From contig OX442324.1 of assembly GCA_949358305.1 (NCBI GenBank), positions 8,839,601 through 8,903,600 on the forward strand: 64,000 nt of DNA, given 5' to 3'. The stretch comes from Strigamia acuminata (Eukaryota; Arthropoda; Chilopoda; Geophilomorpha; Linotaeniidae). Each line of letters starts with the position of its first letter. Position 1 is the stretch's first letter. Shown piece by piece: positions 516 through 62,383 of this stretch. Both the position numbers and the translations under genes were made by a program. Below the pieces are notes generated by a model that worked only from the letters and a program-made list of their open reading frames with translations, was not told the origin of the DNA and did not search any database.

Positions 516-2923
516 CATCAGTCGTACCGCAAATTTCTACGAAATATACCAAATGGCAACAACGAGTCCTTTTACGAACCCAACAATGAACAACAAAGAG
601 TGTCATTCAACGACACTGTCCAATATGCGAACTGGTCGATCAAGCCAGCATCAGATGATGAGCATTCGATATCCGAAGAAAAATCTGTATCCAACTTGGC
701 TTCTAAATCAAAGACGCCACCTATGCAGATTGTCCACATTCCACCCCCATCAACGCCGGAACGACAGTTATTAGAACTTTGTGCATCAACATTGCCGACT
801 CCAGCTCGTGGTTCCGTATCACATCCGATTACTAATGAGGAACACGAACAAATAGCTGAAGGGCAGGACACCGACGATGACGTTGAGCAGATCGAGGAAT
901 TTGCGGTTCAACCGGACGCGGAAGAATTGCGACTGAATCAGTCTGCCCATGTGTCACCGGAAACGTCCAATGCCAGTTCTCCCGGCCTTTCACCACCGAT
1001 ATCACCAAATCGTTTCATCACGTTACGAAAGAAAGCTGGTCCAAACATTCTGCAGCACACAATGCCAATCTTTGATCAGGGGCAAATGTCTCCATTGCCT
1101 CCTGGCGCAACACATGTTGCAGCTCCTTCTGCCGGCAAGACATCATTCTATTGGCGTTATGTCGGCGGGAACACAGTGTTTCGCAGATGGGTTCGCGAAG
1201 AACACCTACGAAAGGACCAGCAGCCAGGTTCGATAGATATCGACGTCTACTATTTTCCCGAACCCGGCCTTCGACTTCGATCTCGCAGAGACGTCGAAGA
1301 ATTCTGTGTCATGAACAATCTCCCTTACGACCCAGAGTTATTCTTTTTCGGCAACATAGAACATACGCTACCGACGATTCCTTTTCTACCTCGGCACGTT
1401 GCTCACCTCTGTCGCACCGAACCGTCAAATTCGACGACGCTCCAAAATGGCGTGAAGCCATTGATGAAGAGTTAGGAACTTTTAAGGAGCGGGAAATCTA
1501 TGTCGAAGTGCCGAAACCGCCCGATACGACAATCCTGGGCTGTAAGTGGATTTTTAAACTCAAATCAGATGCGACCGGCAAGATTACTCGATATCGTGCT
1601 CGACTTGTCGCCCAAGGCTTTCGCCAAACCTTCGGAATCGACTACGACGAGGTCTTCAGTCCAGTTGTAAATTTCGTCCTCATTCGTCTATTCTTTTGCC
1701 TTTTGGTAGTGCTACGAGGATGGAAAGACGCACATCTCGACGTCAAATGTGCATACCTGTACGGGGACCTGGAGCACAAGGTCTACATGCGCATCCCGGC
1801 AGGTGCCACCTGTAATCATCCCGACAACGTTTGGTTACTCGTGAAATCTCTTAACGGACTCCACCAGTCTGGCCGACAGTGGTATTTGAAACTGGACGAA
1901 GCACTTCGAGCCCTCGGATTCCGGAAAATGCCCGCATGCAACTGCGTGTACATCTACGGCAATTGCGCAGTCATGTTAGTCTACGTCGATGATATTGTAC
2001 TTTTCTATGCAGCCGACAGTGTTTTGGACCGGATTATTCGACTTATTACTTCGAAATTCGACATAGTCAACCTCGGCCCAATTACCAAACTGTTAGGCGT
2101 CGAGTTTATCCGCGAATTGGGACGCACTTATATTTCTCAACGTGCATATATCGCGAAACTCATCACGAAGTACAGTACATCGACAAATCGACTCGTGAAG
2201 GTGCCAGTGACACCCGGAACCACATTAGTCCGAGCATCGACAGAGGACCTGATCGATTTTCCCTACCGCTCACTTATCGGGTCACTACTGTTTCTGGCAT
2301 CACGAACGCGCCCCGACATCTTATTTTCCGTCATCTCGCTTTCGCAGTTCAACACTTGCTACGATAACACCCACATCCGTGCGCTCCTCCAAGTTCTCCA
2401 GTACGTGGCAAATACTGTTGATTACCGTATCGAACTTTCGAATTGTGCGTCAAGCCAATTATGGGCGTATACGGATGCATCGTGGGCTAGCGATTTGGCG
2501 ACATCTTTAAGTTTCGGTGGCTACATTACATATATCGGGAATGTGCCAATTGGCTGGTCGTGTCGGAAACAATCGACTGTCGCGTGTTCAACTATGGAAG
2601 CCGAATTCCTCGCCCTAGTTGATTGCGTGAAGGAAACCTTTTGGCTCGATAACATCTTCACCGAATTAGCGATTTTGAACCGCCTGTCTCGTCCGATTAT
2701 TTATTCCGATGCCCTAGCCAGCATACAATTCACATCTAACGACGTGGAAAACTCGAAGACGAAGCATATCCGCGTCAAGTATCACTGGCTTAGGGAATGG
2801 TTTACGGCAGGCTGTTTTGATCTCCGAAAAGTGTCCAGCGAGCATAACGTCGCGGACATCTTCACTAAGTGGCTCAGTTCAGAGCGTCTTCAGTCGTTGA
2901 TCTCCCGTGTATTCCGACTTTAG
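516..2923 (+). pseudogene. Copia-A pol, 3' half (MBD-like domain, RT, RNase H), frameshifted
   Basis: This is the C-terminal half of a Ty1/copia polyprotein. An acidic/proline-rich linker (516-1130) is followed by an MBD-like segment (about 1180-1360) with W-x-R, RK, DVYYF and LRSR motifs, then reverse transcriptase with an intact YVDD (about 1984-1995), then copia RNase H with STMEAEF, ending VFRL-stop. The frame breaks near 1432: relative to Copia-C a small deletion removes the residues between RTEP and FDDAPKW, and the RT frame continues from there. Gag, protease and integrase are absent because the LTR at 1-515 interrupts the gene. The remaining RT/RNase H frame is open to the stop, so decay is modest. 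Confidence 0.9.
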
Positions 2924-18611: not shown

Positions 18612-21600
18612 TCAAGCACGCAAAATGCTTAAGTCAACTAAGAAACGATCGCAAAACTTTACCAAGTCAGCTTTGTCAACTGACTTTGTAAAAATGTCGG
18701 CAAAATTGGACTTTGTGCCTACGTGAACAATTAGAAGATTATCTCTTTTAACAAGTTCTCTTATAAAATGGTAACGGATGTCAATGTGTTTTGTTTTTCT
18801 ATTCTCAACACAAGATTTTGTAAAGTCCACTGTTGATATGTTGTCGCACATGACATAATGAGAGAATCTTCCAGCCAATTCTGGGGATATCTCGTGCAGA
18901 ACACGAACAATCCAGATGTAGTCCTTGACAGTTTCTGTAAGGGCCACGTACTCCGCTTCCATTGTTGACAATGTTACGTTCCGTTGTATGAAGGTGCGCC
19001 AGTAGATGGGTGTGCTACCCAAAGTCACTAGTGTTCCTGCAACGGAGATCCGGTCATCTCTGTTGTTCGCATAATCGGAATCGCTGTATCCGATTACCTC
19101 GATCTGGTCATTCGGGAACAACATCAATCCGTGATTTCTCGTTGTTCTCAAATAGCTGAGTAAGTCCAGTAGCGCAATCCAGTGATCCCACCCTGGATTC
19201 GATTGCAATTGACTCAGGATGTTCACTGCATAAGTCATGTCGGGCCTTGTCCTCGACGCGATGAATGCCAAACATCCAAGTAAGCTTCTATATGGAATTC
19301 CTTCCATGGCTTTGAATTCATCAATTGTGTCTGGACAATCTCGTTTCGTGAGAACAGTCGCTTTCGTCATCGGTTGAGATCGAATCTTCACATGCTCTAA
19401 GTGGTTTTTAAACTTTAACAACACTTTGTTCACGTATGACCTTTGGTGAAGAACCAATTGTTGTTGATGTGAATGAAATTCGACTCCTAGCAACTTTTTC
19501 GTTTGTCCGAGTATCACTAAATCAAATTGCGTTCCAATCATGTTGAGTATTTTCATCGCATCTTCGTACTGCTTTCCAAAGACAACGATATCGTCAACGT
19601 AGACGATTAGATACGCAATATCTTCGTATTTATAAACGCAGTTGCACCAATTCACGTGTTCAAGTCCTAGTTTCAACAAAGTCTCCTCTAGTTCTATACC
19701 CCACTCTCTTCCAGATTGGTGTAAACCGTATATGGCTCGGAGGAGCCTGCAGACATAGTTCTCTTTGCCTTCAATGATGAAACCTTTTGGCTGACGCATG
19801 TAGACTGTTTTATGCAACTTTGCGTAAAGATACGCACACTTGACGTCAGCTTGTATGTACGACCATTTGAGCATACAAACGAGTAGCGTGAACATGAAGC
19901 GCACGATTGAAAAGTCTACTACGGGTGAGAATGTCTCCTCATACGACTCGCCGTAGACTTGGGAAAATCCTTGCGCGACAAGTCTCGCCTTATAACGTGC
20001 AATTTCTCCCTCTTCGTTCTGTTTGGTCGTGTAAATCCATCTGCAACCCACTATCTTAGTGTTGGGCGGTGGTGGAACAAGTTCCCAAACCTCGCGCTCA
20101 TGCATGGTGCCAATCTCGTCGTTCATCGCTTGGCGCCATTCATTCCTTTCGGGTAAAGTCGCAATTTCCTCATAGCGTACGGGTACGTGGACCTCTAGAT
20201 GATTGGCTTCGAAGTTGATATTAATATCGTCAAAGTCCACGTCAAGACTATCTGTCGTCGTGTTTGATTCTGAGGGCTTTTTCTTTCTTTTGTCCTCAAA
20301 CAGATGCTCTGGTACGCGAAGATTGTGGTCAGTACAGTAACGCTTCACCTCGGGTATCGAGCGTAACTTGGGTTTGTCGTAGCCCTCGATTGTGTACTCG
20401 ACATCCCTCTGTCCAGTCGGTCTGACTTTCTCCGTTTTCTTCCAAACTAGTGCAGAAATAGTTGGAACTGGATTCAAAAGTCCTTGTCCGGGTTGTGGTA
20501 AAGTGCCCTGCAACTTCACTTCTGGTAAATTATGATGCAACTTGTCATCTGGCAGTCTAAATTTCAATTTAACTGGGGGCAATTCCAGTTGCGGATCTTC
20601 CTTCTTCTTTACTGGTACTGGCGGTGGTAGTGGCGGCCTGACATCTTCATCCGAATAATATTGGCGCTCATTGTCGTTATCCAAATTGTCGTCCAAATTA
20701 TCGATGTATGTCGTGTATTTTTCTGGTAGGCCCAGCACGCCTTCAACACCGCGCCTGCTTTCTACGAACTTCACGTCGCTGGTTTCGATTACTTTGGAAA
20801 ACTCCGGCAGCCATACTCGATATCCCTTTGTTATCCTCGAATATCCGACCATAATGCCGTGCAAGCTCTTGTTGTCGATTTTCCCATCTCGAATTCTTTT
20901 CTGCACAAAGCATAAACTTCCGAATTTTCTCAAATGTCTCAGTGATGGTTTACGTCCGTAGTACAATTCCATCGGCGTCTTGTCCGAATTCAGCTTTGCG
21001 ATCCTGTTCCTGAGATAGTTGAAAGTCAGGATGGCTTCTCCCCAGAATCGATGTTCCAAGCCGGCATCGTACACAAGCGCTCGTATTCCATTTGCTAATG
21101 TCTGGTTGAGTCTCTCGGAAACGCCATTTTGGACTGGAGTGTACGCGTTAGTCCTCTCGTGAGCGATTCCTAGTCCTTGGAGGTACTCTCCAAACTTGTT
21201 TGAGCAGAACTTCATACCGTTATCCGTACGAATTGCGAGAACCGATTTTCCAAGCAATCGTTCTATCCGTTTCACGTGTTTTTGGAAAATGTCAAATACT
21301 TCGTCCTTCTTCTTCATTAAGTACACTGTCGAATAACGAGAGAAGTCGTCCGTGATAGTTAAGAAGTATATGTTTCCCGAGAGTGTTGGTGTGCTAAATG
21401 CTCCACATACATCCATGTGTAGCAATTGGAGTGGCTCTGTCGATCTAATTCCTGGCAATGACTTATGAGAAATCGCTTTCTTCTTGGCTAATGTGCAAAC
21501 GTCGCATTGTGTGATTGGCACATCCAAAATTGGCAAACCAATTACTGCACCTCCTTTGCTCATTGCTTGCACGCTTGGAAAATAGATGTGTCCTAGCCGC

Positions 21601-27764: not shown

Positions 27765-30700
27765 ATGGATTCGGACAAACCAGAAAGAAAAATCACCTTG
27801 CTGAACAGGGAGAATTATGATGCATGGAAACAGCAGATCAAAGTACTTTTAATGCATCATGGCTGCTGGAGTTTCACCGATGGAACTGAAGAGGCGTTGG
27901 CACCTGGAGCGTCTTGGCGCGACCGGTCGGATTACAAGTTGCGGAAAGGACGTGCTTTTAGTTTGATCTATTACTCGATCGAGGAGCAGTACCACGAGCT
28001 GCTCAGTGGGATCGAAGACGCCAAGAAGGCGTGGGACACTCTAAAGGCCAATTTCGAACCGGTTTTCAGAGCGCGGATAATACGTCTACTGGACGAATTC
28101 TTTAGCCTCAAATACGACCCGGCGACGGAGACGATTGGAGTCTTTGCAGCAAAGATACGAAACGCCGCAAAGAAACTCGCCGACGTCAAACACAAATTGG
28201 AGGACTTGTATCAGGCATTCCAACTCATTCGATACCTGCCAGCAGAATATCAATCGATTGTCCAGAGTATTTACCGCTGGGAAGATGCAAATTTCACTTT
28301 GGAGAAGGTGGAAGCCGAATTAGTCGCCGAGGAAGGCAGGCTGGCTCAACAACGACGCGATTCGGGCCAGGGGCCGATCGTGGATGCTTTTAGCATGGGA
28401 ATGAGCAGCACGAACATGAAAAACAGTGACAATTCACAGAAACAACAACAACAACAACAGCAACAAGGGAACAATACTCAAAACAATCGAGGATTTCAAG
28501 GCGGACAAAAGGGTGGCAGATCCAATTATCGAGGCGGCAAAAATTCGAGGAATTTTCGAGGAAACACGACCGGATCACCAGGACGGGGGCCGTGTTTTCG
28601 CTGCAATCAACCAGGACATTGGGCGCGGGATTGCACGATGCAATTGCCACCAAGCAACAATTTAAACACGAATAGTGCAGAAGAATTGGACGCCAACATG
28701 TTAGATGTCGGATTTTTGACAGAATTGGACAAAGAGGAGATGCTGCAGTGCAGCACAACAAACAATTGTTGGATATACGACACCGGGGCGACCGGACATT
28801 TCTGTAAGGAGAAGGACCAATTCTTTAATTTCAAACAAACCACTGGAACTATCAGCCAAGCAGATAAAAAGACATTAATACAAATCCAAGGCGTTGGCGA
28901 TGTCTGCGTGATGTGCGTCGTGGGGAAAGAAACAATTCCAATAACTTTAAAGAAAGTTTACTACGCACCGGATTTGAGGAGAAATTTGATGTCGGGACCG
29001 TGTATAGACGAGGCGAGATGCAAGGTTGCAATTGGCTGCGGAATAGTTAAGATTTACGACCCACAGTGGAAGAGACAATTAATGGAAGCTGTAAAAAAGG
29101 ACAGACTTTACTACATTAAAACGAGTGACCAAAAACCAGACTTTGAAAAGCTGAGACAAAAGCAAAACAACAAAGCTTATGTTGGCGAACAACAAAAACA
29201 ACCATCAACTGGATCAACCAGGAATGCATCTAATCCAGAAGAAGCTAGACTTTGGCACGAACGTTTGGGGCACATTCATTTTCCGAGTGTACAAGGAATG
29301 AGTAAAAGTGATGCAGTAGTTGGACTGCCTATATTAGATGTGCCCATTACACAATGCGACGTTTGTGATTTGGCGAAGAAAAGGTCGGTTTCACACAAGT
29401 CTTTGCCTGGAATTAGATCCAAACAACCACTAGAGCTACTTCATATGGACGTGTGCGGCGCTTTTAACACGCAAACACTTTCCGGAAATAGATACTTTCT
29501 CACTGTTACTGATGATTATTCGCGTTACTCAACAGTGTACTTAATGAAGAAAAAGGATGAAGTATTCGAAATATTCCAGAAACATGTTAAGCGAATAGAA
29601 CGATTATTGGGAAAATCGGTTCTAGCCATTCGAACGGATAATGGCATGGAGTTTTGTTCAAACAAATTTGGAGAGTACCTCGAGGGACTGGGGATTGCCC
29701 ACGAAAGGACTAATGCGTACACTCCTGCCCAGAACGGCGTTTCTGAAAGACTCAACCAGACTTTGGCAAATGGGATGCGTGCACTCATCTACGATGCACA
29801 ATTGGAACATCGATTTTGGGGTGAAGCAATTCTCACTTTCAACTATCTCAGAAATCGGATTGCCAAGTTGAACTCGGACAAAACACCAATGGAGTTGTAT
29901 TATGGTCGGAAACCATCGCTTCGACACTTGAGAAAATTTGGGAGTTTGTGTTTCGTGCAAAAGAAAATTCGAGATGGCAAAATCGACAAGAAAGGACTGC
30001 ATGGAATCATGCTCGGCTATTCCCGGATAACAAAAGGATATAGGGTCTGGCTGCCAGAATTTTCCAAAGTGATCGATTCCAATGACGTTAAGTTTGTAGA
30101 AAGCAGACGCGGAGTTGAAGGCGTGCTGGGCCTTCCAGAGAAATATACGACGTATATTGACAATTTAGAAGATAATTTGGAGGATAACGATCGCCAATAT
30201 TACTCAGATGAGGACATTAGACCACCACTACCGCCGCCAATCCCAATTCAGAAGACAGAAGCTCAACAAGAGGAATTACCTCAAGTGAAACTGAAATTTA
30301 GACAACCAGAAGACAAATTACGAACCAATTTGCCTGCACCACAAGCGAAGGCAAAAGTCCCGGACCCTGTTCGTACTATTCCTCCACTTGTTTGGATGAA
30401 AACAGAAAAAGTTAGACCAACGGGACAAAAGGATTTTGAATATACAATCGTCGGATATGACAAGCCGAAATTGCGTTCGATACCGGAAGTGAAACGATAC
30501 TGTGCGGACCACAATCTTTGTGTTCCTGAGCATCTTTTCGAGGACAAGAGAAAGAAGAAGCCATCCGAATCGAATGCAACAGCAGACTATTCAGACGTAG
30601 ATATAGATGAATTAACTCTTGACTTTGAAGCTAATCATCTCGAAGTTCATATTCCAACACGCTTCGAGCAGATTGCAAGTCTACCAGAAAAGGGAGAATG

Positions 30701-33264: not shown

Positions 33265-34225
33265 GTATCTACCACAAAAGAAATGGCGACACCATCACAT
33301 TAATTGCAATTTACGTCGACGATATCATCATTGCAACGAATTGCATGAGCAACATGGAGAAGCTAAAATCGAAATTGAAGAGTGAATTTAAGATGAAGGA
33401 CTTGGGGCCCATTCATTATTGCCTTGGGATCGAGTTTAGACAGGATGAAAAAACGAAATCGATCGATATGTCGCAGAAGAAATACGCAAAGGATGTATTA
33501 AATCGATTTGGGATGCCGGAATGCTCTACGAGTTCAACACCACTTGATGCAAATCAAAAGCTGCAGAAGAACAAGAAGAACGAGGACGGGACAGAAGAAA
33601 AGAAACTGGACCCAAACGAATATCCCTACCAAAATTTAATCGGTTCCTTGATGTATCTCGCCGTCTGCACCCGACCCGACATCGCATACACGGTCAGCGC
33701 ACTCAGTCAGTACAACACCTGCTTCACCGCAACGCACTGGACTGCAGCAAAAAGAGTGCTGAGATATTTGAAGTACTCGACTGGCCTTGGTTTGAAGTAC
33801 GAAAAGACCAAAGAAAAGTTGTTTGGGTACACCGACGCAGACTGGGGAGCTTGCCTGGACGATCGACGGTCGTACACTGGGTACTGCTTCAAACTCGCCA
33901 ACGCAACCATTTCCTGGGAAGCAAGAAAGCAGCGAACCGTCGCAACATCGTCAACAGAAGCGAAATACATGGCACTGGCGGACGCGTCGAAGGAGGCCAT
34001 CTACTTACGAAATTTCCTCGACGAGATAGGATTCAGTAAGAAGACCGATGGGCCAACTTTAATCTACAGTGACAATCAGGGCGCCCACAAACTAGCTCGA
34101 AACCCAGCATTCCACCAGAGAACGAAGCACATTGACATACGCCATCATTTTATTCGCGAAACTTGCGAACGCGGAGACGTCGTCATCGAGTTCTTACAAA
34201 CAGAAGACATGGTCGCTGACGTGCT
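33265..34225 (+). pseudogene. Copia-E pol (RT to RNase H), split by Copia-D
   Basis: A different copia lineage from A-D. It opens in RT with YHKRNGDT and AIYVDDIIIATN (YVDD near 33324), followed by MKDLGPIHYCLGIEF, then YQNLIGSLMYLAVCTRPDIAYT, then RNase H with GYTDADWGACLDDRRS, SSTEAKYMALADASKE and KHIDIRHHFIRE. The frame is open up to VADVL at 34225, where Copia-D is inserted. The last codons resume at 62753. The 5' side is cut by the Copia-B LTR. RNase H residues look intact. Confidence 0.93.
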
Positions 34226-34786
34226 TGTTGGTTTTGAGAAACCCAAAGGATTTATATCGATGTGATATAGAATCACATTTTGAATGTTTATTTTGTTTAT
34301 CTCGATATATTTATCGTAATTACTTATCAAACTGTTCTTTTGAATATTATTCCGACATTTATCTTTGTTTACAAGTTTAAGCATGAGGTATCATGCATTA
34401 TTTAGTCTAATCTTATGTTTTCCCGAGTTTTTACCTTGTATAATGCTTTATTCTGACACAAGGTGTCACTCATGTATGTTTTGACCATCCAAGATGGCAG
34501 CACACAGTGCTTTTCTGCTCTGCCTTTTCTCAACTCCAGAATGGAGCCAATTTGTAAGTTGTTTCATTTCAATTAAACCTTTTGTTGTTTTAGTTGTTAG
34601 TGTTTATCATTAGAACACCTTTTGTGTTTTGTTCAAGCGCACATAAGCGGTATTTGTCCGCGCGCACTCGTCTCGGCAATTGACAACGTCGTTGCTACGT
34701 CCGTGTCGGACACACGGCGCCCGATACGCGCTTCCAAACTCGGCTCACGCCGAATTTGCGCTGCTTTCCTCTGCTGCTGACCTTCA
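34226..34786 (+). repeat. Copia-D 5' LTR
   Basis: 561 bp from TGTTGGTTTTGAGAAACCC to gctgctgaccttca. Palindrome gacacaaggtgtc at 34455-34467 and ccaagatggcag at 34489-34500. Its first ~150 bp equal those of the solo LTRs at 1-515 and 52569-53105, while the middle differs. Confidence 0.93.
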
Positions 34787-35837: not shown

Positions 35838-36324
35838 TGTAGCAGAGGAGTGCGCAAATAATCGGTATATTTACCGATTTAACGAAGCGTGCTTTGGAAG
35901 AAAGCCTAATCATCAATGGCGACGTACGTGATACGTACGCGATTCGTTTCGTGTAAGCGCGCGGCTTATTGCCGCTTATATGCGCCGGAAAACTTGCACA
36001 GAATGTGCTTAAAGGTATACACAATACTAATACAAAATATACACTTTAATAAAACGAAATTATACATTACTAATCTGGAAAAACAGCTAGATAATACACG
36101 TCTGTGTGTTCCGCCATGTTGGAAAAGAGAAAGATAAAAAGGGGGGCACTCTGGTGCCGGAAATTAACATTAACAAAGGATAAATCATTGGATTGAAGAA
36201 CAAATCATTGGGAAATGTAACAACATATGGAGTTACATATGAGACATCGCTAAATTAACAATAGAATCGAAATCAATAGGATATAAATAAATTCATCGAT
36301 AAAAACATGGTCTTTAGACCAACA
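35838..36324 (-). repeat. Copia-C 3' LTR
   Basis: 487 bp; TGTTGGTCTAAAGACCATG at 36324 to cctctgctaca at 35838. Palindrome ggcactctggtgcc 36145-36158 and ccgccatgttgg 36111-36122 (plus-strand view). Confidence 0.95.
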
Positions 36325-36533
36325 AATCCCCTCTTCGATGGAAATATTTATCAGGGGACGAGATGAACGCATACTGGAATTACAGTTGATTATTGACGAG
36401 AAAAGAAAACAATAAAGTCGAATCATCGAGCCGGGTACTGTCGTGATTATCACTTGACTAAGCTCGGTATTCCCACAGAAACTCGATGATCCTCGCAATC
36501 GGGTGAAACTAAAATAGGAATGTCACGGTCTGT

Positions 36534-39500
36534 TTATACTCGGAAAATCTTCGAAATCAATGATCGTAAACGTTCCGAAGATAGCCACTTTGTGAATATG
36601 TCGGCGGTATTAACTTCGCCGGCTACCTTTCGAAGATCGAAGACTCCCGCAGTAAACCACTCCCTGAGCCAGTGAAACTTCACGCGAATTTGCTTCGTCT
36701 TCGCGTTCTCGATGTCATTAGACGTAAATTGAATCGAGGCCAGGGCGTCGGAATACACGATAGGTCGAGATAAACGGTTGAGAATCGGGAATTCGGTGTA
36801 TACACTGTCGAGCCAGAAGAGCTCCTTCACGCACTCAACCAGGGCGATGAATTCGGCTTCCATGGTTGAGCACGCTACGGTCGACTGTTTACGACAGGAC
36901 CAGCCAATAGGGACATTTCCAATGTATACGATGTATCCTCCAAAGCTCAATGATGTCTCCGGATCGCTTGCCCACGACGCGTCGGTAAATGCAGACAGTT
37001 GACTAGAAGAGCAACCGGATAATTCGATGCAAAGTTCTGCAGTGTTTGCTACGTACTGCAGAACCTGCAGCAAGGCGCGGATGTGGGTTCGATTATAGCA
37101 CGTGTTGTACTGTGCCAAAACGATGACGGAATAGAGTATGTCGGGACGAGTTCTCGATGCCAAAAACAGAAGTGAACCGATTAGAGATCGGTATGGAAAA
37201 TTTTCCAAGTTTTCGGTCGATCCTCTGACGAGTGTCGTTCCCGGGGTCACCGGTGTCTTGACGAGATTATTGGTCGACGTCCCGAATTTCTTAACAAGTT
37301 TGGCGATATAAGCACGTTGCGTTATAAACGTGCGTCCGGCGTCGCGGATAAATTCGACGCCTAATAGCTTCGTGATCGGACCGAGGTTGACTATGTCGAA
37401 TTTCGAAGAGATGAGACGGATTAGCTGATTGAAAACGCTGTTGGACGCGTAAAACACGACGATGTCGCCCACGTAGACCAGCATAACAGCTGTATTCCCG
37501 AACACGTAAACACAATTACATGCTGGCATTCTTCGAAATCCGAGGGCCCGAAGTGTCTCGTCGAGTTTCTCGAACCATTGTCTCCCGGATTGGTGGAGGC
37601 CGTAAAGCGATTTGAGAAGAAGCCACACGTTGTTTGGATCGGTGCATGTGGCACCTGCAGGGATTCTCATGTATACTTTGTGTTTTAACTCGCCATACAG
37701 GTACGCACATTTTACGTCGAGGTGTGCGTCTTTCCAGCCTCGCAACACAACCAGGAGACAGAAAAATAGACGAATCAACACGAAGTTCACGACCGGGCTA
37801 AACACTTCATCGAAGTCCACGCCGAGGGTTTGGTAAAATCCTTGGGCAACCAGGCGAGCACGATGACGAGTGACGGTTCCGGCTGCATCGGTTTTTAGCT
37901 TGAAAATCCATTTACAACCGAGAATGGTGGTGTCCGGTGGTCGGGGAACTTCGGTGTAAATTTCTCGCTCTTTGAAAGTGTCCAATTCTTCTTGGATGGC
38001 TTCCCGCCATTTCGGAGCGTCGTTGAATTTGGGAATTTCGGCGAATGAAGCCGGCTCGGTTCGGCATAGATGAGCCGCGTGACGAACGCCCGGAAGAATT
38101 GGTAACTTATGCTCGAGATTTCCAAAGAAGAAAAGTCCGGGGTCGTAATCGATGTTATTTAACAAACAATAGTCCTCGACGTCCTTATAAGATCTTAAAC
38201 GGATCTTCGGAGTTGGGAAATAATAGACGTCGATTGCGATTGATCCGGGTTTTTGATCCTTCCGGAGATGCTCTTCGCGTACCCATTCACGACACTCTCC
38301 ATCTCCACCAACGAATCGCCACATGTGAGTCGTGTGGCGAGCGGTTGCCGCAGCGACTTCGGTTCCCAATACCGGAGCTGGTGACATGGGATCGGGGTCG
38401 AATATCTGCAACGTATGCGTAGCAGGATCACCAGCGCGTTGTTGACGACGCGTTGTGATGAATCTCGGCGTCGGTACCGGTGTTTCACGGGGAAGTGGAG
38501 GTGCTGCCGAACGTTGAGGCGAGGGTGGAGCTGATGGGCGAGGCGATGGCGGGGCAGATTGACGAGGTGTCGACGGAGGTAGTTGATGCGACGATGTTTC
38601 TGCTGACGCGCCAACAAGTTCGGACGTCTCGGGATAAACCGATAGCTCATCCATCTCTCGGATGTCGTGGTCGGTGTCACGTTCTTCTTCATACGAAATG
38701 TGATGGGATTGGCGAAGAGACGCAGAACCCGGAGGTAATGTCGCACATAGATCCAGCAATACCCGTTCCGGAGTTGTCGGAGGTGGAATGTGGATGTGCG
38801 GATATGCAGGTGGCGTGTGCATCGAAGCGGATGCCGTTGACACATGTTCGGAGTCGTTTGCAGAGTGTTCGGAAGCCTCTGAATCGGATCCCCTGGGCCA
38901 CTGATGGTAATGAAGGTTATCATCGAATGTGACTGATTGCTGATTCGGGCTCGGAAACGATTCTTGAGGTTGCTGTGATGAAATTTTAATGGACTTCCGA
39001 TAGGATTGGCGTTCGTCAACTTTGACGTGGATCGACTCATAAACTTTGTTGTCGGTTGGGTTCCAAATCCTGTATCCACGGGTCCCGGTGGCGTAGCCGA
39101 CTAAATATCCCTCCCAGGCCCGCGGATCCAGCTTCTTGCGGCCTGGTGCGGTGTAGTGCACCCAGCACTTGGAACCGACTTTTCGTAGATGTCGTAACGA
39201 AAGGGCTCTCTGTCGCCAAAGGATGTACGGAACTTGATTGTTGAGACGAGAATGAGGGCACCGGTTCTTGATGTACGCGAACGTAACCGCGAGCTCGGCC
39301 CAGAGCGCTTCCGGCAACTTGGTTTCGGATAAGACTGCACGAAAGTTGTCGGCCATTGTCCGGTTTATGCGCTCGGCCGTGCCATTCATCTGTGGCGATG
39401 ATGGATTCGTTCGCTGACCCTGAATACCTTTGTCTTGAAGGTAGCGGAGAAATTCGTTTGATAAAAATTCGCCACCCCGATCCGTACGGATAGCCTTGAC

Positions 39501-41585
39501 TTTCGCGTCCTGTATCCGCTCCACCCGTGCAACAAAATCCTTAAAAGTTGCGAAAACTTGTGATTTCTGCGCTAGCGGTATGATCCAGCAATAGCGAGTA
39601 GCGTCGTCGATGACGGTAAGGACGAAACGCGCTCCTCCAAACGATGGGATAGGGGCGGGCCCCCAAATATCCATGTGGAGAAGGTCCAAAGGCTTTGTTG
39701 TCGAGGGATTCGGATCGGGCTTGTGAGAAGCTCTAGTCGATTTGGCGATCCGACAATCGTTGCAAGCCAATTCTCTGCTGACTTCCCCTGGTTGCATTCC
39801 GTAAACTTGGTCGTTTGCGGCCAACAACTTCATTCCATTGGTGTGAAGGTGGCCAAGTCGGCTGTGCCATAAGCCGGTGGCGTCCTTGACGGAAGCTGGA
39901 TTGGCAATGACCTTCTTTTTCGGTTGAGACGGATTGCCGAGGGAAGGAAAGGAATTTGCGTTGTGAATCGCGGTAGGAATTGCCGTCGGAATTGACTGTA
40001 GGGCACTCGCATAGGAAGGAGGAATGGTCAGGTCATTGTGGATTTGTGTGGGAATGGGAGGAGGGATCGGATTGGTTTGAGGAGCTTGTCGTACAGAAAT
40101 TTGCTTTACTGCTGGCATCTCAATCCGGAAGTCCGTAATTTCTCGCTGATTCGACCCTTTTCCCTGTCTATGCTTTGGAATATTCGGGAAATCTTCTTCG
40201 GTTGTCACGTACATTTGCGGTGGCGACGGTGGAATCGTCGGTTGTGTCGTAGGAGAGACAGTCGTCGCAAATGTCGGATTCGAACATAAACCGTCCACAT
40301 AGTAAAGACCACCTCTCTCCTTTGCACGGATGAGAGGACTGTGAATGTCCGATTGGTAAACATGAATCTCACTGTTGAAAATGTGGATATGATGTCGAGC
40401 TTTATCAATCTTCGAAACCGAAATCAAGTTTGCCTCGAAGTTCGGCGCGTAGAGAACATTTGTCAAATTGACGGTGCATCGGGTCTTGTCAATTGCTAGT
40501 AGAAGACGAACTGTCCCTTTGCCCGTTACTTGGGACTTGCCCTGTCCCAACTCGATGTCAAAGGGAATCACATCGGTGAATTCAGTGAATCCTGCACGCA
40601 CGTGAGACACGTGGTCCGTGGCGCCGCAATCCAGTATCCATTCATTGGATTGCATGAAGTGGGCTACTGGACGTTGGACAGTCTGCGGCGCGTTGACAAA
40701 GAATGTCCCCTCTCGATGCGGATGGGAACTCTCACGGGGACGCGTGTTGTTTGCCTTCGCCGCGGCGTTCTTGTTGCGCCGGCGGCTCTTACTGCGAGAA
40801 TTGCGTTGTAGTGAAGCCGCGGGTTGCCCCTGTTGTTGACGGGGCGGACGTGGACATTTGTTTGCGTAATGTCCGAATTGATCGCAATTGAAGCACTTCA
40901 CCGTCGAGATATCACGAGGTCCGGATTTATTTCGGGGTCGGAATTGTCCTTTCATAGACGCGTGAGCTGATGATTGGCTCGTTCCGAGTAATCCGATGGA
41001 TTTGAGCCGCATGTGCTCGGAAATCAATTGTTCGGCAACATCCTTCGGCGTAAACTGTGGATCTGGCCAATGGTATATTGCGAAGGTGGCCTGAGCATAT
41101 TCGGACGGCAAACACTTCAGGTACTGGTACGCGTGGTGAATCGGACTGATGATTTCATTGACGTCACTTAATTGCCGCACGTAATTGTCCACGCGGGCAA
41201 TGAAATCCGGCATATCTTCGCCAGGTTGGAGTTGGAGGCTGAGGAACTCCCAGCGCATCGCCGCTTGACGGGCTCTAGAGCTGGGCGCGTATGTTTTCGC
41301 CAACTTGTCCCACGCCTCCTTTGGCGTGTTACAGGTTTCCAAAACAGTACGCTTGGCGGGGCTCACATGGATGTAGATGTGTCCTAATGCCTTGTCCTTC
41401 TTTACCATGAATATATCCAATTCTTTGGGCGTTAACGTGGCAATATGTTCCGCTTCCTTGTCCTCCGTCACGTGCCTCCAGAGCCCCTCAGACTTCAGCA
41501 AAAACTGCACTGACAACCGCCATTGTTCGTAATTGTCAACACCGAGAACCGGAATTAAAGTGTTCGAATTCGCCGATTTCTGCAT
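36534..41585 (-). CDS. Copia-C Gag-Pol polyprotein, open but with YVGD in RT
   Basis: A 1683-residue frame from MQKSANSNTLIPVLGVDNY at 41585 (an extra in-frame ATG lies one codon before). Domains: gag; zinc knuckle CFNCDQFGHYANKC (about 40890-40850); protease LDCGATDHVSH (about 40631); GAG-pre-integrase; integrase with MDIWGPAP, RTDRGGEF and NGTAERINRT; Pro/Ser-rich linker; MBD-like segment (about 38310-38130) with WVREEHLRK, DVYYF and LRS; RT; RNase H ending ISKIFRV. The RT box reads YVGD because codon 37469-37467 is GGC, not GAC; loss of a catalytic Asp should abolish polymerisation. No stop or frameshift. Otherwise the element seems complete and young. Confidence 0.95.
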   Translation of the reverse strand: MQKSANSNTLIPVLGVDNYEQWRLSVQFLLKSEGLWRHVTEDKEAEHIATLTPKELDIFMVKKDKALGHIYIHVSPAKRTVLETCNTPKEAWDKLAKTYAPSSRARQAAMRWEFLSLQLQPGEDMPDFIARVDNYVRQLSDVNEIISPIHHAYQYLKCLPSEYAQATFAIYHWPDPQFTPKDVAEQLISEHMRLKSIGLLGTSQSSAHASMKGQFRPRNKSGPRDISTVKCFNCDQFGHYANKCPRPPRQQQGQPAASLQRNSRSKSRRRNKNAAAKANNTRPRESSHPHREGTFFVNAPQTVQRPVAHFMQSNEWILDCGATDHVSHVRAGFTEFTDVIPFDIELGQGKSQVTGKGTVRLLLAIDKTRCTVNLTNVLYAPNFEANLISVSKIDKARHHIHIFNSEIHVYQSDIHSPLIRAKERGGLYYVDGLCSNPTFATTVSPTTQPTIPPSPPQMYVTTEEDFPNIPKHRQGKGSNQREITDFRIEMPAVKQISVRQAPQTNPIPPPIPTQIHNDLTIPPSYASALQSIPTAIPTAIHNANSFPSLGNPSQPKKKVIANPASVKDATGLWHSRLGHLHTNGMKLLAANDQVYGMQPGEVSRELACNDCRIAKSTRASHKPDPNPSTTKPLDLLHMDIWGPAPIPSFGGARFVLTVIDDATRYCWIIPLAQKSQVFATFKDFVARVERIQDAKVKAIRTDRGGEFLSNEFLRYLQDKGIQGQRTNPSSPQMNGTAERINRTMADNFRAVLSETKLPEALWAELAVTFAYIKNRCPHSRLNNQVPYILWRQRALSLRHLRKVGSKCWVHYTAPGRKKLDPRAWEGYLVGYATGTRGYRIWNPTDNKVYESIHVKVDERQSYRKSIKISSQQPQESFPSPNQQSVTFDDNLHYHQWPRGSDSEASEHSANDSEHVSTASASMHTPPAYPHIHIPPPTTPERVLLDLCATLPPGSASLRQSHHISYEEERDTDHDIREMDELSVYPETSELVGASAETSSHQLPPSTPRQSAPPSPRPSAPPSPQRSAAPPLPRETPVPTPRFITTRRQQRAGDPATHTLQIFDPDPMSPAPVLGTEVAAATARHTTHMWRFVGGDGECREWVREEHLRKDQKPGSIAIDVYYFPTPKIRLRSYKDVEDYCLLNNIDYDPGLFFFGNLEHKLPILPGVRHAAHLCRTEPASFAEIPKFNDAPKWREAIQEELDTFKEREIYTEVPRPPDTTILGCKWIFKLKTDAAGTVTRHRARLVAQGFYQTLGVDFDEVFSPVVNFVLIRLFFCLLVVLRGWKDAHLDVKCAYLYGELKHKVYMRIPAGATCTDPNNVWLLLKSLYGLHQSGRQWFEKLDETLRALGFRRMPACNCVYVFGNTAVMLVYVGDIVVFYASNSVFNQLIRLISSKFDIVNLGPITKLLGVEFIRDAGRTFITQRAYIAKLVKKFGTSTNNLVKTPVTPGTTLVRGSTENLENFPYRSLIGSLLFLASRTRPDILYSVIVLAQYNTCYNRTHIRALLQVLQYVANTAELCIELSGCSSSQLSAFTDASWASDPETSLSFGGYIVYIGNVPIGWSCRKQSTVACSTMEAEFIALVECVKELFWLDSVYTEFPILNRLSRPIVYSDALASIQFTSNDIENAKTKQIRVKFHWLREWFTAGVFDLRKVAGEVNTADIFTKWLSSERLRSLISKIFRV

Positions 41586-41723
41586 CATGAATCGCTGGAC
41601 GAAACACGACGCGGAGAACACAAAAGCTCAGAGAGTGGCACTGCTTAATGGCACTAAATCGAAGCACAGAATCGTCGCACTTCACTAGCACTTGCTGTTC
41701 GAGGCGGAAAGACCAGAATTGGG

Positions 41724-41834
41724 AGGCAATGCTACAATTGCCTGATAACCTGTGGTAAGTGTCCCCCCGACGTCCTTTACGACCACCTGGGGTCACGGGA
41801 ATGTCGGGTGGCGCAGGGCTCAGCCTTACCACAG
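41724..41834 (-). ncRNA. Structured leader RNA element, Copia-C copy
   Basis: Minus orientation: stem 1 ctgtggtaag/cttaccacag (41834-41825 with 41759-41750), stem 2 cccgac/gtcggg, stem 3 gacc/ggtc around ccaggt, then hairpin II aggcaat-tgtagc-attgcct (41743-41724). Same 85-nt length for the main element as in B and D. Confidence 0.87.
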
Positions 41835-42593
41835 AATACAACAACGCGGTGCTCGGAATCGAGCGTAGGGCGTTGAGGATTCTAAATGACCCACCAAAAT
41901 CCCCTCTTAATTCTAACAAAGTTAATTTCGAATAAGGAGAAATAGATGAATCGATCGCGGTTGCGATCCTCGCGCAAATGAAGGCGCGGCTCGGCTTTCT
42001 CGAAAAGCCGGAGAAAACGCAATTCGGACGTGAATGTCCGAATTCTTCTCGAAAAATCGAAAAATCGAAAATTCGAGGCTCTTCTTCCTCTTGAAAAGTT
42101 CGGTGATAACCGCCGTTCACCGGGGAACTAAGCGGCCAATACTCGAGTATTGGGTTCTCGTTGTAACTGTCGCCGGAGCTAAACAGTGTCGTACGGTGAA
42201 ACCGGCAAAAAATCTGAAAATAAATAATATTCGCCTCGAAATCCGCGAATCCCGCGTGGTTTCGGACGAAATTAATTGAGGAATCGCTGGAGAAGCAGCC
42301 CTGGCTGCTACACAACGTCGAAAAATCCGAAAAACCTACAAATAACAATTTTCGCACTGAAATTTGCGAATCCCGCAAAATTTCGTGCAAAATTAGCCTC
42401 GAAAATGGCTGAATATCTTCAGCGAACGATCCAAGACGTTGACGTTGCGTTTCAGGCAGTGTACGAAACGTACGATGGACGAATATCGGTCGGAGAATCG
42501 TCGCAGCCTGAAAATAAATGTTTTCGCGCAAAATCGCGAATTTCGCGAATTCTGCGTCGAAAATGAAACAAATAACGATGGTATTAGGCAAAA
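41835..42593 (-). other. Copia-C leader with acceptor-like modules
   Basis: Non-coding leader from the primer site toward gag. Modules on the minus strand end in attttcag, atttgtag and attttcag near 42508, 42336 and 42214, each preceded by tcgcgaat-like motifs. Confidence 0.65.
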
Positions 42594-42609
42594 ACCATCC
42601 TCTGCTACC
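42594..42609 (-). promoter_or_regulatory. Copia-C primer-binding site (tRNA-iMet 3' end)
   Basis: The plus strand shows ccatcctctgctacca, identical to the end of initiator tRNA-Met, so the minus strand is the binding site; 2 bp from the LTR. Confidence 0.92.
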
Positions 42610-42611
42610 AA

Positions 42612-43098
42612 TGTAGCAGAGGAGTGCGCAAATAATCGGTATATTTACCGATTTAACGAAGCGTGCTTTGGAAGAAAGCCTAATCATCAATGGCGACGTA
42701 CGTGATATGTACGCGATTCGTTTCGTGTAAGCGCGCGGCTTATTGCCGCTTATATGCGCCGGAAAACTTGCACAGAATGTGCTTAAAGGTATACACAATA
42801 CTAATACAAAATATACACTTTAATAAAACGAAATTATACATTACTAATCTGGAAAAACAGCTAGATAATACACGTCTGTGTGTTCCGCCATGTTGGAAAA
42901 GAGAAAGATAAAAAGGGGGGCACTCTGGTGCCGGAAATTAACATTAACAAAGGATAAATCATTGGATTGAAGAACAAATCATTGGGAAATGTAACAACAT
43001 ATGGAGTTACATATGAGACATTGCTAAATTAACAATAGAATCGAAATCAATAGGATATAAATAAATTCATCGATAAAAACATGGTCTTTAGACCAACA
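42612..43098 (-). repeat. Copia-C 5' LTR
   Basis: 487 bp, nearly identical to the 3' LTR (differences seen at gatatgtacg versus gatacgtacg, and acattgct versus acatcgct). Confidence 0.95.
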
Positions 43099-46000
43099 GA
43101 AATCACCTTACGTGGAGCCAACGGTTGGAAAATGCCCGATGTTGGGCATAAACAATTATGAATCATGGCGTCGTGCAATGTGCATGCTTCTAAAGTCCGA
43201 GAGGCTTTGGAGGCATGTAACGGAAGAAAAAGAAGCCGAGTATTTATTGACATTAACGCCCAAAGAGACCGAAAAATTTATGATGAAAAAGGATAAGGCG
43301 TTAGGGCACATATATTGCCACGAGAGCGAGGCAAAACGCTCGACATTGGACAATGCCAACACTCCGAAACAGGCATGGGACATTCTCACTAAGATTTTCG
43401 CTCCTAGTTCCCTGGCTCGTCAAGCAGCCATGAGATGGCAATTTTTAGGCCTGCATCTTCAACCGAACGAAGACATGGTCGATTTTGTCAGTCGCGTCGA
43501 TCTCCACGTACGCCAACTTAGGGATATGAAAGAGGAAGTCTCGGACAAGCATCACGCTTACCAATATTTGAATCGACTGCCTCCGGAATATGCTCAGGCC
43601 ACATTTGCCATCTACAACTGGCCTGAAGCAAATTTCACACCGACAAAAGTGTCTGAACAATTAATATCCGAGTACCTTCGCCTTAAATCAGTGGGTCTAC
43701 ATAATGTTTCGTCATCGGCTCACGCATCTGCCCAGAACCAGCAACAGTCTCGTCAAGGTTCACGTCCACGTCGTCCATTATCGCAAGTCAAATGCTTTAA
43801 TTGTAATGAGATGGGCCATTACGCGAACAAGTGCCCACATCCTAAACGTAATGATCGAAATCAGCCGCCGACAGCTTCCTTTCAACGTTCTCGCAGCAAA
43901 AGCAAGAAGCGTGGCAAGAACTCGGCATCCAACCCCGAGGACAATCGCCCGAGAGGAAGTTCTCATCCAGTCCGCAAAGCTGTATTTTTCGCCAGTGCAC
44001 CGCAAATGGTTGAACGTCCAGTGGCTCACCTGATGCAATCCAATGAATGGATACTCGATTGCGGTGCGACAGATCATGTTTCCCACGTGCGATCGTGGTT
44101 TTCCGAATTTACAAACATTGTCCCGTTTGACATAGAACTTGGTCAAGGAAAATCACAGGTGACCGGCAAAGGAACTATTCCATTACAAACACGCATGGAC
44201 GGCGTTCATTGTAGCGTGACGTTGACTAATGTACTCTATGCGCCCAATTTCGAGGCGAACCTTATTTCTGTATCGAAAATTGACAAGACTCACCACCACA
44301 TCCATATCTTCAATGGAGAAATACATGTCTATCAAACAGATATTACGGATGCTATTTTGAGAGCGAAAGAAAAAGGAGGACTTTACTATGTGGATGGGTT
44401 GTGCACTAATCCGGCAATTGCTACTATGACTTCACCAATTATTCAACAATCACCCGTACAAACTTTTGTCACGACGAAAGAGGACTTCGTGAAGATTCCG
44501 AAGCCAAAGAAACAGAAGTCACAGCAACAGTACATTACGGATTTTAGGATTCAGATGCCGCCATTACCTGCGACGGAGGCCCCGACGTCAATCGCGGTTG
44601 CCACCAATCCTGTCCCACAATCCTTGCCTGTCCTCAACAACTCTCCGACCCCATCCTATGCTGATGTCATCCAATACATCCCAAGCAGTCCTTTGCCTAT
44701 TACACCTCCTCCTGTTGTCCAATCCGCTAGCAACTCTTCTCAATCACAAAAGAAGATTGTTCCTAACCCTGCCCAATTACCAAAGAAAGTCCATGCCAAT
44801 CCCGCTTCTGTCAAAGATGCAACTGGTTTATGGCATAGTCGCCTTGGACATCTTCACACCAACGCGATGCGGTTATTAGCCAATAATGACCATGTTTATG
44901 GACTTGAACCGGCGGAAGTGTCGCAGGAATTAGCATGCAATGACTGCCGTATTGCGAAGTCTACCAGGGCTTCTCATAAGCCGGATCCTCATCCTTCCAC
45001 CAGCAAGCCTCTTGACCTCTTACACATGGACGTCTGGGGGCCATATCCGGTTCCTTCATTTGGTGGCGCTCGCTTAGTCCTCACCGTCATTGACGATGCA
45101 ACCAGATACACCTGGATCACCCCCTTAGCACAAAAATCCCAAGTCTTCTCGTGCTTCAAAGAAATCGTAGCCAGAGTTGAGCGTGTCGCCAACACACGTG
45201 TCAAGGCCATACGCACTGATAGAGGCGGCGAATTCTTATCGAATGAATTTCAACAATATTTAAAGGACAAAGGGATCCAGGGTCAGCGAACAAATCCTTC
45301 GAGCCCCCAAATGAATGGCACAGCTGAGAGAATCAACCGGACAATGGCTGACCACATTAGAGCTGTACAAGAAGAAACAAAACTTCCAGCCGCTCTATGG
45401 GCAGAGATCGCTGTCAACTTTGCCTATATTAAAAATCGAAGTCCACATTCCCGTCTGAATAATCAGGTGCCATATATTCTTTGGCGACAGCGTGCTCTTT
45501 CCTTGCGTCATCTGAGAAAAATTGGATCTAAGTGCTGGGTGCACTACACTGCACCGGGACGCAGGAAACTCGACCCGCGAGCCTGGGAGGGATTTCTCGT
45601 GGGCTACGCCACTGGCACACGTGGCTACCGCGTATGGAACCCTGTGGACAATAGCGTAACGAAGTCGATTCACGTACGCATTGACGAACATCAATCTTAT
45701 AAGAAATCACTAAAGAGCCAAAATGGTAATCGCTATCCAATTTTTGAAGAACCAGACGCTGGTCAACAACATCAAGTGACATTTGATGATAACGTCCACT
45801 ATCTAGACTGGCCTAAACATGATTCTGATGGAGACTCATCTAATGCATCGGACGATGATAATAACGACGACCCAGACGATGATGATGATGATGATAATGA
45901 TGAGGATGGAAATGTTTCCAGGTCGATATCTATCCCACTTGTACATCTTTCATCACTTAATACGCCTGAACGTCAATTACTAGAAGCATGTGCACTAGCA

Positions 46001-46572
46001 TTACCAGGTTCTGCAACATTGGGCCATTCAGCAACGTACCCAATCTTTTTTCAAGAAGAACAAGACACCGATGAAGATATTGATCAAATCGATGATGATG
46101 CTATTCGATCGTATGCAGCTGAATCGCAACAGTTTGACTCTCCGAATATTTCATCAGCTCCTGTCAGCTCTCCCGAGCTTTCCCAGCTTTCCCCACCTGG
46201 CTCACCGAATCGCTTCATTACATTACGTCGAAGACACGGTGGGAACATTCTTCAGCACACGATGCCCATACTTGACCAGGGAGCTATGTCACCTTTGCCA
46301 ACTGGTTCGACGTCCGTTCCGGCTCATGGAAACAAGACTTCTTTTATGTGGCGTTATGTGGGTGGAGACACAGTCTTCAGGAGATGGGTTCGCGAAGAAC
46401 ACTTAAGGAAAGATCAACGACCAGGCACGATTGACGCAGATGTCTATTATTTTCCACAGCCTGGCACAAGACTTCGATCCCGTAACGAAATTGAAGCATT
46501 CTGTCAAGTGAATGATCTCCCTTACGATCCTGAATTATTCTTCTTTGGCGTTATGGAACATTCGTTACCATT

Positions 46573-48322
46573 TGTGACGATTCTACTTTTGGGCTAATTT
46601 ATTAGTCCTTTTGAGATAGATAATTCGGTTTATACAAGACGTTGCTAAGTTTAGCAACAACCTAACCGAGATAAGCTACGGAAGTCTTTACAAACATGAC
46701 ACGTGATCGAATAGAAATAACTTACAGTTCTAGTGTGACATAACATATTTATTACTAAATATTAACAATAACAAAGATGGGTTCTTGACGCGTGTAAACG
46801 GGCGGCATCAACTGGTTGAGGATCCGGGCGAAGCCAGAGGGATACGGCTGACTTGCGGCATCGTCACAAATATCGCTACGGAGACGTATTTGGTCCGCAG
46901 CTCGAGTATCTAATAATGCGAAGAGTCCTTCGCATAAGTAGGAATATTCAGCAGAATATTCCATGTTCCAAATGAATAAAAGTAAAGTAATTAGTGGAAT
47001 ACAACAAATGAATTGTTGTATAAATATTAATTGGGCGGGGACCGTCACGACAATTGAGAGAACGTCGCGGGAGTTGTTGAGACTCCATCCGCCAGCATGC
47101 CTTACGACGACAAGATCTCGTGATCAGGCGCCGAGTATTTAATTGTGTGCTTTAACTCGCTATCGGTGGTACCAACCACCAGGTAAACATTTCTATGGAC
47201 TTACCGGGTCTAAAAGATATTGCCAATACAGAATTACCAATGCCCGAGTAATTTGTTTAACACAGTGTTTTCCAACTCCTGTTCACGGGTTACTAACCCG
47301 GAGGGTATAATGGGGCGGGGACCGTCACGACGGTTGAGAGAACCATCGCGGGAGGATTTGACTCCTCCATCCGCCAGCATGCCTTACGATGGCGGGATCC
47401 AATGATCGAGCACCGGGTAAAATATTACTTGGCCACTGCCGTTGGATTACCATTATCCAGGTAGTTATTTTATCGCAACATCTTGAAGATATTACTCACG
47501 GGCTACCAACCCGGCGTGTTACCTGTGCATTAGGCCTTTACCGACTTTTAACGAGCGGAAGGACCAATCGAGAAAAGACGGGAACCTGCGAGGGCTGTTT
47601 ACAACAGCCATCCTGCAGCGGACTGAGGCCAGTTAGCTGAGGGACCTACTTTCATTTAGCAAGGTCGTACTGTATACGACCGTTATATTAAGCCACCGTA
47701 CGAAATCTAACTGTCCCGTAGAACAGCAAGCTAACGTTACGGGGCCATTTCATGCGAATGCATGTCTATTACCGGAGTTAGCCTTCCCGAAATAGCCCTA
47801 CAACAGCAATAACAAAATAGTAATGAATACTAACTGTGGAGAGCTGAGGTGGCCTGATGTGTCAATAGAGAATAATGAAATCAAACGATAACAATTCAAC
47901 TACAGACAATATACGTGTTCAGTTATCAAGCCAGGGGGGTGAGAGGGTGAAAAACTGATGCTTATATAGTTCTGTAGAACTACTAGATTGGCGACAGCCA
48001 ATCAGCATACGAATCGGCGGATTCGTGGGTCACTAGTCCGGACCTAATATATGACTATGTCCAGATGGGCCCAGTTGGGGTCCGGAAGGGTCCAGTTGGT
48101 TCCCTTCGACAGGTAAGTAGCGTGGATATTGATTCGACAGAATCAACATCATCAAGTAATTAATACTTAGTTTATGTGGAATAAAATAGTTATATTTTAT
48201 TCACCGTGTCTAGATAATTATTTATCACACTTTTTAGTTTTATCGAGTTTGAATTACGCGCGTTTGGTAAACAGCGCCATCTATTGTGAACATTGATCAA
48301 TACGGATTTTGTAATCATCACA
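46573..48322. mobile_element. 1750-bp LTR-like insertion with TSD catt
   Basis: The Copia-D frame is continuous if 46573-48322 plus one copy of catt (46569-46572, 48323-48326) is removed. Ends are tgtgacgatt and aatcatcaca, inverted with one mismatch. No transposase or pol frame exists. Two copies of a roughly 280-bp internal repeat begin at about 47033 and 47311 (both with gcggggaccgtcacgac and ctccatccgccagcatgcc). A solo LTR of a large-LTR element fits best; a non-autonomous DNA element is the alternative. Small frames inside (for example 46755-47048, minus) are not recognised. Confidence 0.75.
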
Positions 48323-50110
48323 CATTGGTTCCTCCGGCCCGACATGCAGCTCATCTTTGCCGTACGGAGCCGGCATCCTACTCTGATATATCGACATTCC
48401 CAGATGCCCCAAAATGGCGCAAAGCCGTTAATGAAGAATTGGACATTTTCAAAGAGAGGCAGATTTATCAAGAGGTTCCGAAGCCGCCCAATACTACAGT
48501 CTTAGGCTGTAAATGGATCTTCAAGCTGAAAACAGATCTAAGCGGCGAAATAACTCGTTATCGTGCTTGACTCGTCGCACAAGGCTTTCGCCAAACGATC
48601 GGGGTTGATTACGACGAAGTCTTTAGCCCAGTCGTGAACTTCGTCTTAATCCGGCTTTTCTTCTGTCTTCTAGTCGTCCTCAGAGGATGGAAGGATGCCC
48701 ACCTTGACGTAAAAAGTGCATACCTATATGGCGACCTGAAGCACAAGGTGTATATGCGTATCCCCGCGGGTGCGACCTGTTCGAATCCCGGGAACGTTTG
48801 GCTGCTTGTTAAATCCCTCTACGGACTTCACCAATCAGGGAGGGAGTGGTACGAAAAGTTAGATGGAACGCTTCGAGCCCTCGGTTTTCGGAAGATGCCC
48901 GCGTGCAATTGTGTGTATATTTACGGCAATTGCGCCGTCATGTTAGTGTACGTGGACAACATAGTTCTCTTTTACGCTTCCGACACCGTGTTAACCCGGA
49001 TTATCCGACTTATATCGTCCAAATTCGACATTGTTAACCTTGGTCCCATCACGAGATTATTGGGAGTCGAATTCATTCGCGACGCCGGCCGAGCTTTCAT
49101 CACACAACGAGGCTACATCACAAAGCTCGTTAAGAAGTTCGAAGTTTCCATCAACCGTCTCGTAAAAGTTTCCGTTACACCTAGGACGACACTCGTAAAG
49201 GGGTCAACCGAGAATCTACCGGACTTTCCTTACCGATCCCTAATCGGTTCGCTTCTATTCCTCGCATCGAGAACACGCCCCGATATCTTATTCTCAGTTA
49301 TTTCGTTGAGCCAATTCAACACATGTTACGACAAAACGCACATCCGAGCCCTCACACAAGTTCTCCAGTACGTGGCTAACACCGTCGACTATCGAATCAA
49401 ACTCTCTAACTGTAATTCGAGTCAGTTGTGGGCCTTCACGGATGCGTCGTGAGCAAGCGATCATGCAACGTCCTTAAGTTTCGGTGGCTATATCAACTTT
49501 ATCGGAAATGTGCCTATTGGCTGGTCGTGCCGAAAACAGTCAACGGTTGCATGTTCTACTATGGAGGCGGAGTTTCTCTCCCTAGTGGAATGTGTAAAAG
49601 AATCTTTCTGGCTCGATCACATTTACTCCGAATTTCCCGTTCTCGACAGGCAATCTCGACCAATGATTTATTCTGACGCTCTCTCGGCCATTCAGTTTAC
49701 TGAGAATGACGTGGAAAATTCCAAGACCAAGCATATCCGCGTCAAGTATCATTGGCTGCGAGAGTGGTATAAGGCGGGATGTTTCGATCTTCATAAAGTA
49801 TCCGGTGAACAGAACATTGCGGACATTTTCACCAAATGGCTTAGCTCCGATCGTTTGAAGTCGTTGATTTCCAAGATCTTCCGACACTGATTTCACCGTG
49901 ACTTTATTGTGACTTTTCTTTATTTATTATTCCCAATTGTGAGGATCATCGAGTTCCAGTGGGAATATTCGGGCTTACGTAGCGTTCTTCAATTATAGTA
50001 CCCGGCTCAATGAATCGATTTTATTATTTTTCTCTTTTATCTCATGTACACTGTAATTCCAGTAACCGTTCTTTATTTCCCCTGATTCTATTTCCATCGA
50101 AAGGGGGAAT

Positions 50111-50631: not shown

Positions 50632-50825
50632 CACGTCCCTCCCCGAGAATAAATCATCGGGGCCTCTTAAAATAAAAGGTGGAACAATATCTAATCACAA
50701 AATAATCTTTTTTATTAAATGATGATGCATGATGAACAAAATAATTTACATTTTTGAAATTGATACATAAATAATTTCATGGTTTTTTAGAGAAGACAGT
50801 CTTCTCGTTACGATTTTGTAATCAA

Positions 50826-62379: not shown

Positions 62380-62383
62380 CATG

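Follow-up and report, generated by a model that had tools for sequence, protein, structure and literature searches.

Methyl-CpG-binding domains in the polyproteins of copia retrotransposons of the centipede Strigamia acuminata, including divergent forms within one genome

We have analysed a window of 64,000 nucleotides from Strigamia acuminata (GenBank assembly GCA_949358305.1, contig OX442324.1, positions 8,839,601 to 8,903,600 of the forward strand) that contains copia retrotransposons, here called Copia-A, -B1, -B2, -C and -D. A methyl-CpG-binding domain (MBD) lies between the integrase and the reverse transcriptase of Copia-A, -C and -D. The original prediction, made from the letters of the window, held that these three elements share one such segment, and it is indeed present in all three, in frame and in the integrase-reverse transcriptase interval. 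A related, shorter segment occupies this position of the polyprotein in Copia-B1 and Copia-B2; this version was absent from the earlier list. The coding features are as follows, in window coordinates.

1143..1352, + strand: MBD of Copia-A (Pfam MBD 18.4 bits, seven-MBD profile 46.0 bits)
20283..20456, - strand: divergent MBD of Copia-B1 (profile alignment 25.0 bits, seven-MBD profile 24.0 bits)
30381..30554, + strand: divergent MBD of Copia-B2 (profile alignment 23.2 bits, seven-MBD profile 22.2 bits)
36534..41627, - strand: gag-pol open frame of Copia-C (Pfam identifies gag, zinc knuckle, integrase, SH3-like domain and RVT_2, and the profile the MBD)
38121..38330, - strand: MBD of Copia-C (Pfam MBD 14.4 bits, seven-MBD profile 42.0 bits)
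43061..46597, + strand: Copia-D open frame of 1178 amino acids (gag, zinc knuckle, integrase, SH3-like domain, MBD; broken after the MBD)
46340..46549, + strand: MBD of Copia-D (core starting at W, 46385; Pfam MBD 21.6 bits, seven-MBD profile 47.0 bits)
48571..49452, + strand: reverse transcriptase fragment of Copia-D, past an insertion (RVT_2, E = 1.9e-46)

Copia-C has the Ty1/copia layout, with gag, integrase and RVT_2 in copia order, long terminal repeats (LTRs) and a short target duplication. In its polyprotein the SH3-like domain comprises residues 807-876, the MBD approximately 1100-1169 (from the segment coordinates) and RVT_2 1222-1461. The frame of Copia-D at window 46379-46555 (+) translates as RRWVREEHLRKDQ...DADVYYFPQPGTRLRSRNEIEAFC...YDPELFFFG, and an insertion of about 1.7 kb (about 46594-48330) follows the domain.

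By homology and by predicted fold the segment is a genuine MBD; we regard this as virtually certain. The seven-MBD profile was made from copia MBDs of the same genome with the window sequences left out, and the five window segments score between 22.2 and 47.0 bits against it, compared with a top score of 7.2 bits among 1000 shuffles of these segments. The Pfam MBD family (PF01429, cut-off 21 bits), proposed with the original prediction as a check, gave a divided result on segments of 70 residues: Copia-D passes the cut-off while Copia-A and Copia-C fall below it, and neither Copia-B segment gave a match. On whole frames the scores were 17.1 bits for Copia-D and 15.1 for Copia-A, with Copia-C unlisted up to E = 1, so that by this search alone the case would have stayed open. 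Five further copia MBD rows from the genome score 46.8-50.4 bits against Pfam MBD. A genome-wide PF01429 search gave 1092 candidates, at least 150 of them above the cut-off (150 were scored and all pass); by hand count, 130 of those scored sit in frames of at least 1000 amino acids, and one is by eye what we take to be a host exon resembling BAZ2. Seven copia loci (L001, L003-L008) read by eye have integrase or reverse transcriptase remnants around the MBD, which was also seen in 19 further short stretches (L009-L023, L025-L028).

A profile of twelve aligned copia segments matched MBD2, MBD4, MeCP2, MBD1 and MBD3 in the PDB (best E = 1.8e-13), while the Copia-D segment alone matched MBD2 at no better than E = 0.083. 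Modelled by AlphaFold from 12 sequences, the Copia-D segment has three strands and one helix, with a predicted local distance difference test (pLDDT) score of 87.4. When this model (70 residues) was submitted to Foldseek, ranks 1-23 were all MBD or TAM structures (E of 0.012 and weaker; probability 1.00 at rank 1), and in a repeat look MBD/TAM filled rows 1-36. The profile scores, the match to PDB profiles and the modelled fold thus all agree with the MBD read from the letters, and we did not find the lack of an MBD match and the different fold that would have spoken against it.

Alignment places counterparts of MeCP2 R111, D121, Y123 and R133 in each of Copia-A, -C and -D, in accord with the claim made at the outset; these are the predicted contacts to methylated CpG (mCpG). 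All four are also found in 4 of 7 other aligned rows, and the tyrosine is retained in 20/20 sampled relatives of Copia-C. The full set is lacking in Copia-B, as in many other lineages; the profile alignment gives Copia-B1 a loop about 4 residues shorter, with E at the place of Y123.

The domain changes more slowly at the protein level than the linker upstream of it. Between Copia-D and Copia-A the nonsynonymous divergence (dN) is 0.140 in the MBD compared with 0.431 in the upstream linker; between Copia-D and Copia-C these values are 0.282 and 0.682, with 0.150 in the integrase core. For Copia-B1 against B2, dN is 0.065 in the MBD-like part, 0.196 in the linker and 0.081 in the reverse transcriptase. 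Synonymous divergence (dS) is saturated everywhere except in the linker of the D-A pair, so the ratios are not comparable. Among seven integrase sequences Copia-B is the farthest (38-42% identity), the others sharing 48-55% and the D-C pair 83%. That all the elements have a homologous domain in the same position suggests one early capture, and copia elements probably acquired the MBD from a gene of the host before the lineages split, the donor being a host MBD gene. A host MBD2-like gene is located on contig C5 (C5:5734327-5734579, - strand), as two adjacent matches with 81% and 61% identity to chicken MBD2; the division of its MBD over two matches is possibly due to an intron. The copia MBDs that were read lie in one frame, as capture of a cDNA type would give.

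A study of 2019 is said to have described a Copia family with an MBD, from Strigamia maritima and a spider, under the name CopiaMBD; we use that name, which was not found in the literature searched. Its MBD reportedly prefers methylated DNA, and its members reportedly insert at CpG-dense sites, with a higher CpG density than at the sites of other LTR elements. The title of that paper (de Mendoza, Pflueger and Lister 2019, Genome Res 29:1277) speaks of a 'functionally active' MBD captured by an arthropod retrotransposon family, and it stands in the references of PMC9246332, PMC7343188, PMC8226279, PMC11244446, PMC8821070, PMC12344493, PMC11292947 and PMC11721087. A sentence in PMC7343188 cites it for a recent family of transposable elements (TEs) of S. 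maritima acquiring high methylation, and one in PMC11721087 refers, citing it alongside another paper, to methylated copia elements that build up where CpG is dense, which backs the Copia identity of the family. By this title and these citing sentences the kind is therefore already known, and the novelty implied in the original prediction, whose author knew of no MBD described in copia, does not stand. Copia-A, -C and -D very probably belong with the MBD-bearing arthropod Copia elements, judging from species, architecture and what is reported of that family. As far as title and report allow the comparison, the two have in common an MBD inside the copia polyprotein of an arthropod; they differ in that we are dealing here with another Strigamia species, with coexisting lineages whose MBD cores share 26-53% identity and with two elements carrying a divergent MBD. 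What is new is the set of diverged MBD lineages, many without the tyrosine contact, and the divergent yet constrained MBD of both Copia-B elements.

Two other systems are related in kind. Chromodomains read histone marks rather than DNA. In the chromodomain-bearing gypsy integrases of chromoviruses a chromatin-reading domain is likewise attached near the integrase end (passages in PMC3605345; Gao et al. 2008), although both the element superfamily and the reader domain are different. The LINE and DIRS elements of dinoflagellates that bear a DNA methyltransferase (described in a passage of PMC5890265) have also captured a DNA-methylation protein, a writer where the copia elements have a reader.

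The remaining features concern the structure of the elements.

34225..34786, + strand: likely 5' LTR of Copia-D (from self-comparison)
35838..43098, - strand: Copia-C element (LTRs 35838-36324 and 42612-43098, 487 bases with 2 mismatches; 5-base target duplication GAAAT)
50110-50271 and 62381-62752, + strand: likely pieces of the 3' LTR of Copia-D, probably separated by nesting (from self-comparison)

A gypsy-like element with 363-base repeats (50271-50633 and 62019-62381) probably splits the likely 3' LTR of Copia-D, and the stack read as nested spans window 34225-62752. The LTR pairs of the Copia-B elements are approximately 320 and 335 bases long with 0 mismatches. The window also has host-like stretches with a caspase domain (4978-6111, - strand, E = 2e-16) and a Nup98 Gle2-binding motif (16008-16931, - strand, E = 3.8e-21), and 200 N at 17501-17700. 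According to the published description of the assembly qcStrAcum1.1 (PMC10556566), the contig of the window (C12, 9.63 Mb) fits chromosome X of S. acuminata and C13 (10.34 Mb) chromosome Y. By hand count, 49 of the best 150 Copia-B matches, ranked by likeness to a copy on C12, are on C13 and 34 on C12, although the two contigs together form about 8% of the assembly.

Insertion sites were compared in flanks of 500 bases for CopiaMBD copies, Copia-B copies (5' flank only) and 40 random stretches. Each element sample was the first 20 of 40 chosen from 150 listed, with long frames on large contigs preferred; one of 20 CopiaMBD copies (L049, whose stretch has no LTR pair) and two Copia-B copies (L063 and L066), from a sample that came to 19, were lost. 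An LTR pair was found in 19/20 CopiaMBD copies, with 0 mismatches in 16 and 1 in three, and the 5-base target duplications match in 18 of the 19. For the CopiaMBD 5' flanks the median is 7.0 CpG per 100 bases and the GC content 0.474, compared with 3.2 and 0.366 for random stretches (p = 0.0017); the 3' flanks have a median of 5.4 (p = 0.004 against random). Within the window, Copia-C is read as inserted in the leader of Copia-D, one CopiaMBD element in another, which fits targeting as a single case.

We consider it reasonably probable that the MBD is a captured host reader, carried as an extension between the SH3-like domain of the integrase and the reverse transcriptase, and serving methyl-CpG targeting. 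On the mechanism we are more tentative, and would place it a little short of probable. The MBD would stay on the integrase after cleavage of the polyprotein, and would hold the integration complex at chromatin that is methylated and dense in CpG, directing integration there; new copies would then insert among other transposons and leave genes intact, by analogy with the chromodomains of some gypsy elements. The contact residues and the constraint fit the predicted binding of mCpG, while the insertion sites do not single out the four-contact elements. DNA-methylase matches occur at 11 places in the genome, and in S. maritima a proportion of 0.758 of 719 TEs fell in a highly methylated group, according to an excerpt of PMC7343188.

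A number of observations weigh against targeting by methyl-CpG. The 5' flanks of Copia-B are equally rich in CpG (borders in 17/19; median 6.4, n = 17; p = 0.0004 against random and p = 0.66 against CopiaMBD), so the preference of both groups for GC- and CpG-rich DNA cannot be put down to an intact mCpG reader. The CopiaMBD flanks are thus denser in CpG than random DNA and not denser than those of Copia-B, to be set beside the CpG density reported for the family. CpG observed/expected showed no difference between CopiaMBD flanks and random stretches (p = 0.21), whereas that of Copia-B flanks differs from random (p = 0.017). TE-like flanks were found for 5/19 CopiaMBD, 6/17 Copia-B and 4/40 random stretches (p = 0.13 for CopiaMBD against random), and the insertions that survive may not mirror where copies were targeted. 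The counterpart of Y123 is replaced by V or I in 3/10 aligned MBDs. Of the 19 further stretches noted above, chosen among the PF01429 matches, 18 have V (8), I (5) or W (5) instead of the tyrosine and one has Y. Finally, in 2-kb steps across the TE-rich parts of the window (1-4000 and 18001-64000), CpG observed/expected ranges from 0.94 to 1.65, showing no depletion although the TEs of the sister species are reported as methylated in the excerpt of PMC7343188.

Several of these points would equally be expected if the MBD fold were a general binder of DNA or chromatin that keeps the integrase bound to DNA or inside the nucleus and does not read methylation, the GC- and CpG-rich sites being then a trait of copia integration or of survival. 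This we judge a serious contender, though clearly the less probable account. It is favoured by the similar flank composition of Copia-B, by the V, I or W at the tyrosine position, and by the constraint on the Copia-B domain, in which dN is as low as in its reverse transcriptase. That same constraint means that the Copia-B domain may still bind, and Copia-B is therefore no clean null. Against a general binder stands the retention of all four contacts in Copia-A, -C and -D and in 4/7 other rows, and of the tyrosine in every sampled relative of Copia-C; moreover, the retrotransposon MBD of 2019 reportedly preferred methylated DNA, 'functionally active' being the wording of the title. It is improbable that the MBD is an anti-silencing decoy, competing with host MBD proteins on methylated copies and so easing silencing; the host does have an MBD2-like gene and DNA-methylase genes, but the domain is embedded in pol beside the integrase and not made as a separate protein. 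A likeness by chance or convergence, without homology to MBDs, can be regarded as already refuted, since although the window copies alone lie near or below the Pfam cut-off, the PDB profile match, the MBD-type model, the Foldseek ranks and 42-47 bits against 7.2 for shuffled segments all contradict it.

Returning to methyl-CpG targeting, we raise as a rather unlikely extension that a single captured methyl-CpG reader has diverged, in one genome, into methyl-reading and re-tuned versions, the latter perhaps reading something else while still steering integration. Copia-B may then be the extreme re-tuned form, with a shortened loop reaching over the DNA and Tyr changed to Glu (both from the alignment of B1), and with a dN no higher than in the reverse transcriptase. 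The lineages with V, I or W for the tyrosine may be further re-tuned versions.

The copia elements of a second Strigamia species thus keep a DNA-methylation-reader domain under constraint across deep divergence. The natural variants, with the tyrosine kept, with V, I or W in its place, or with Glu and a short loop, provide a ready comparison for whether the reader guides integration.
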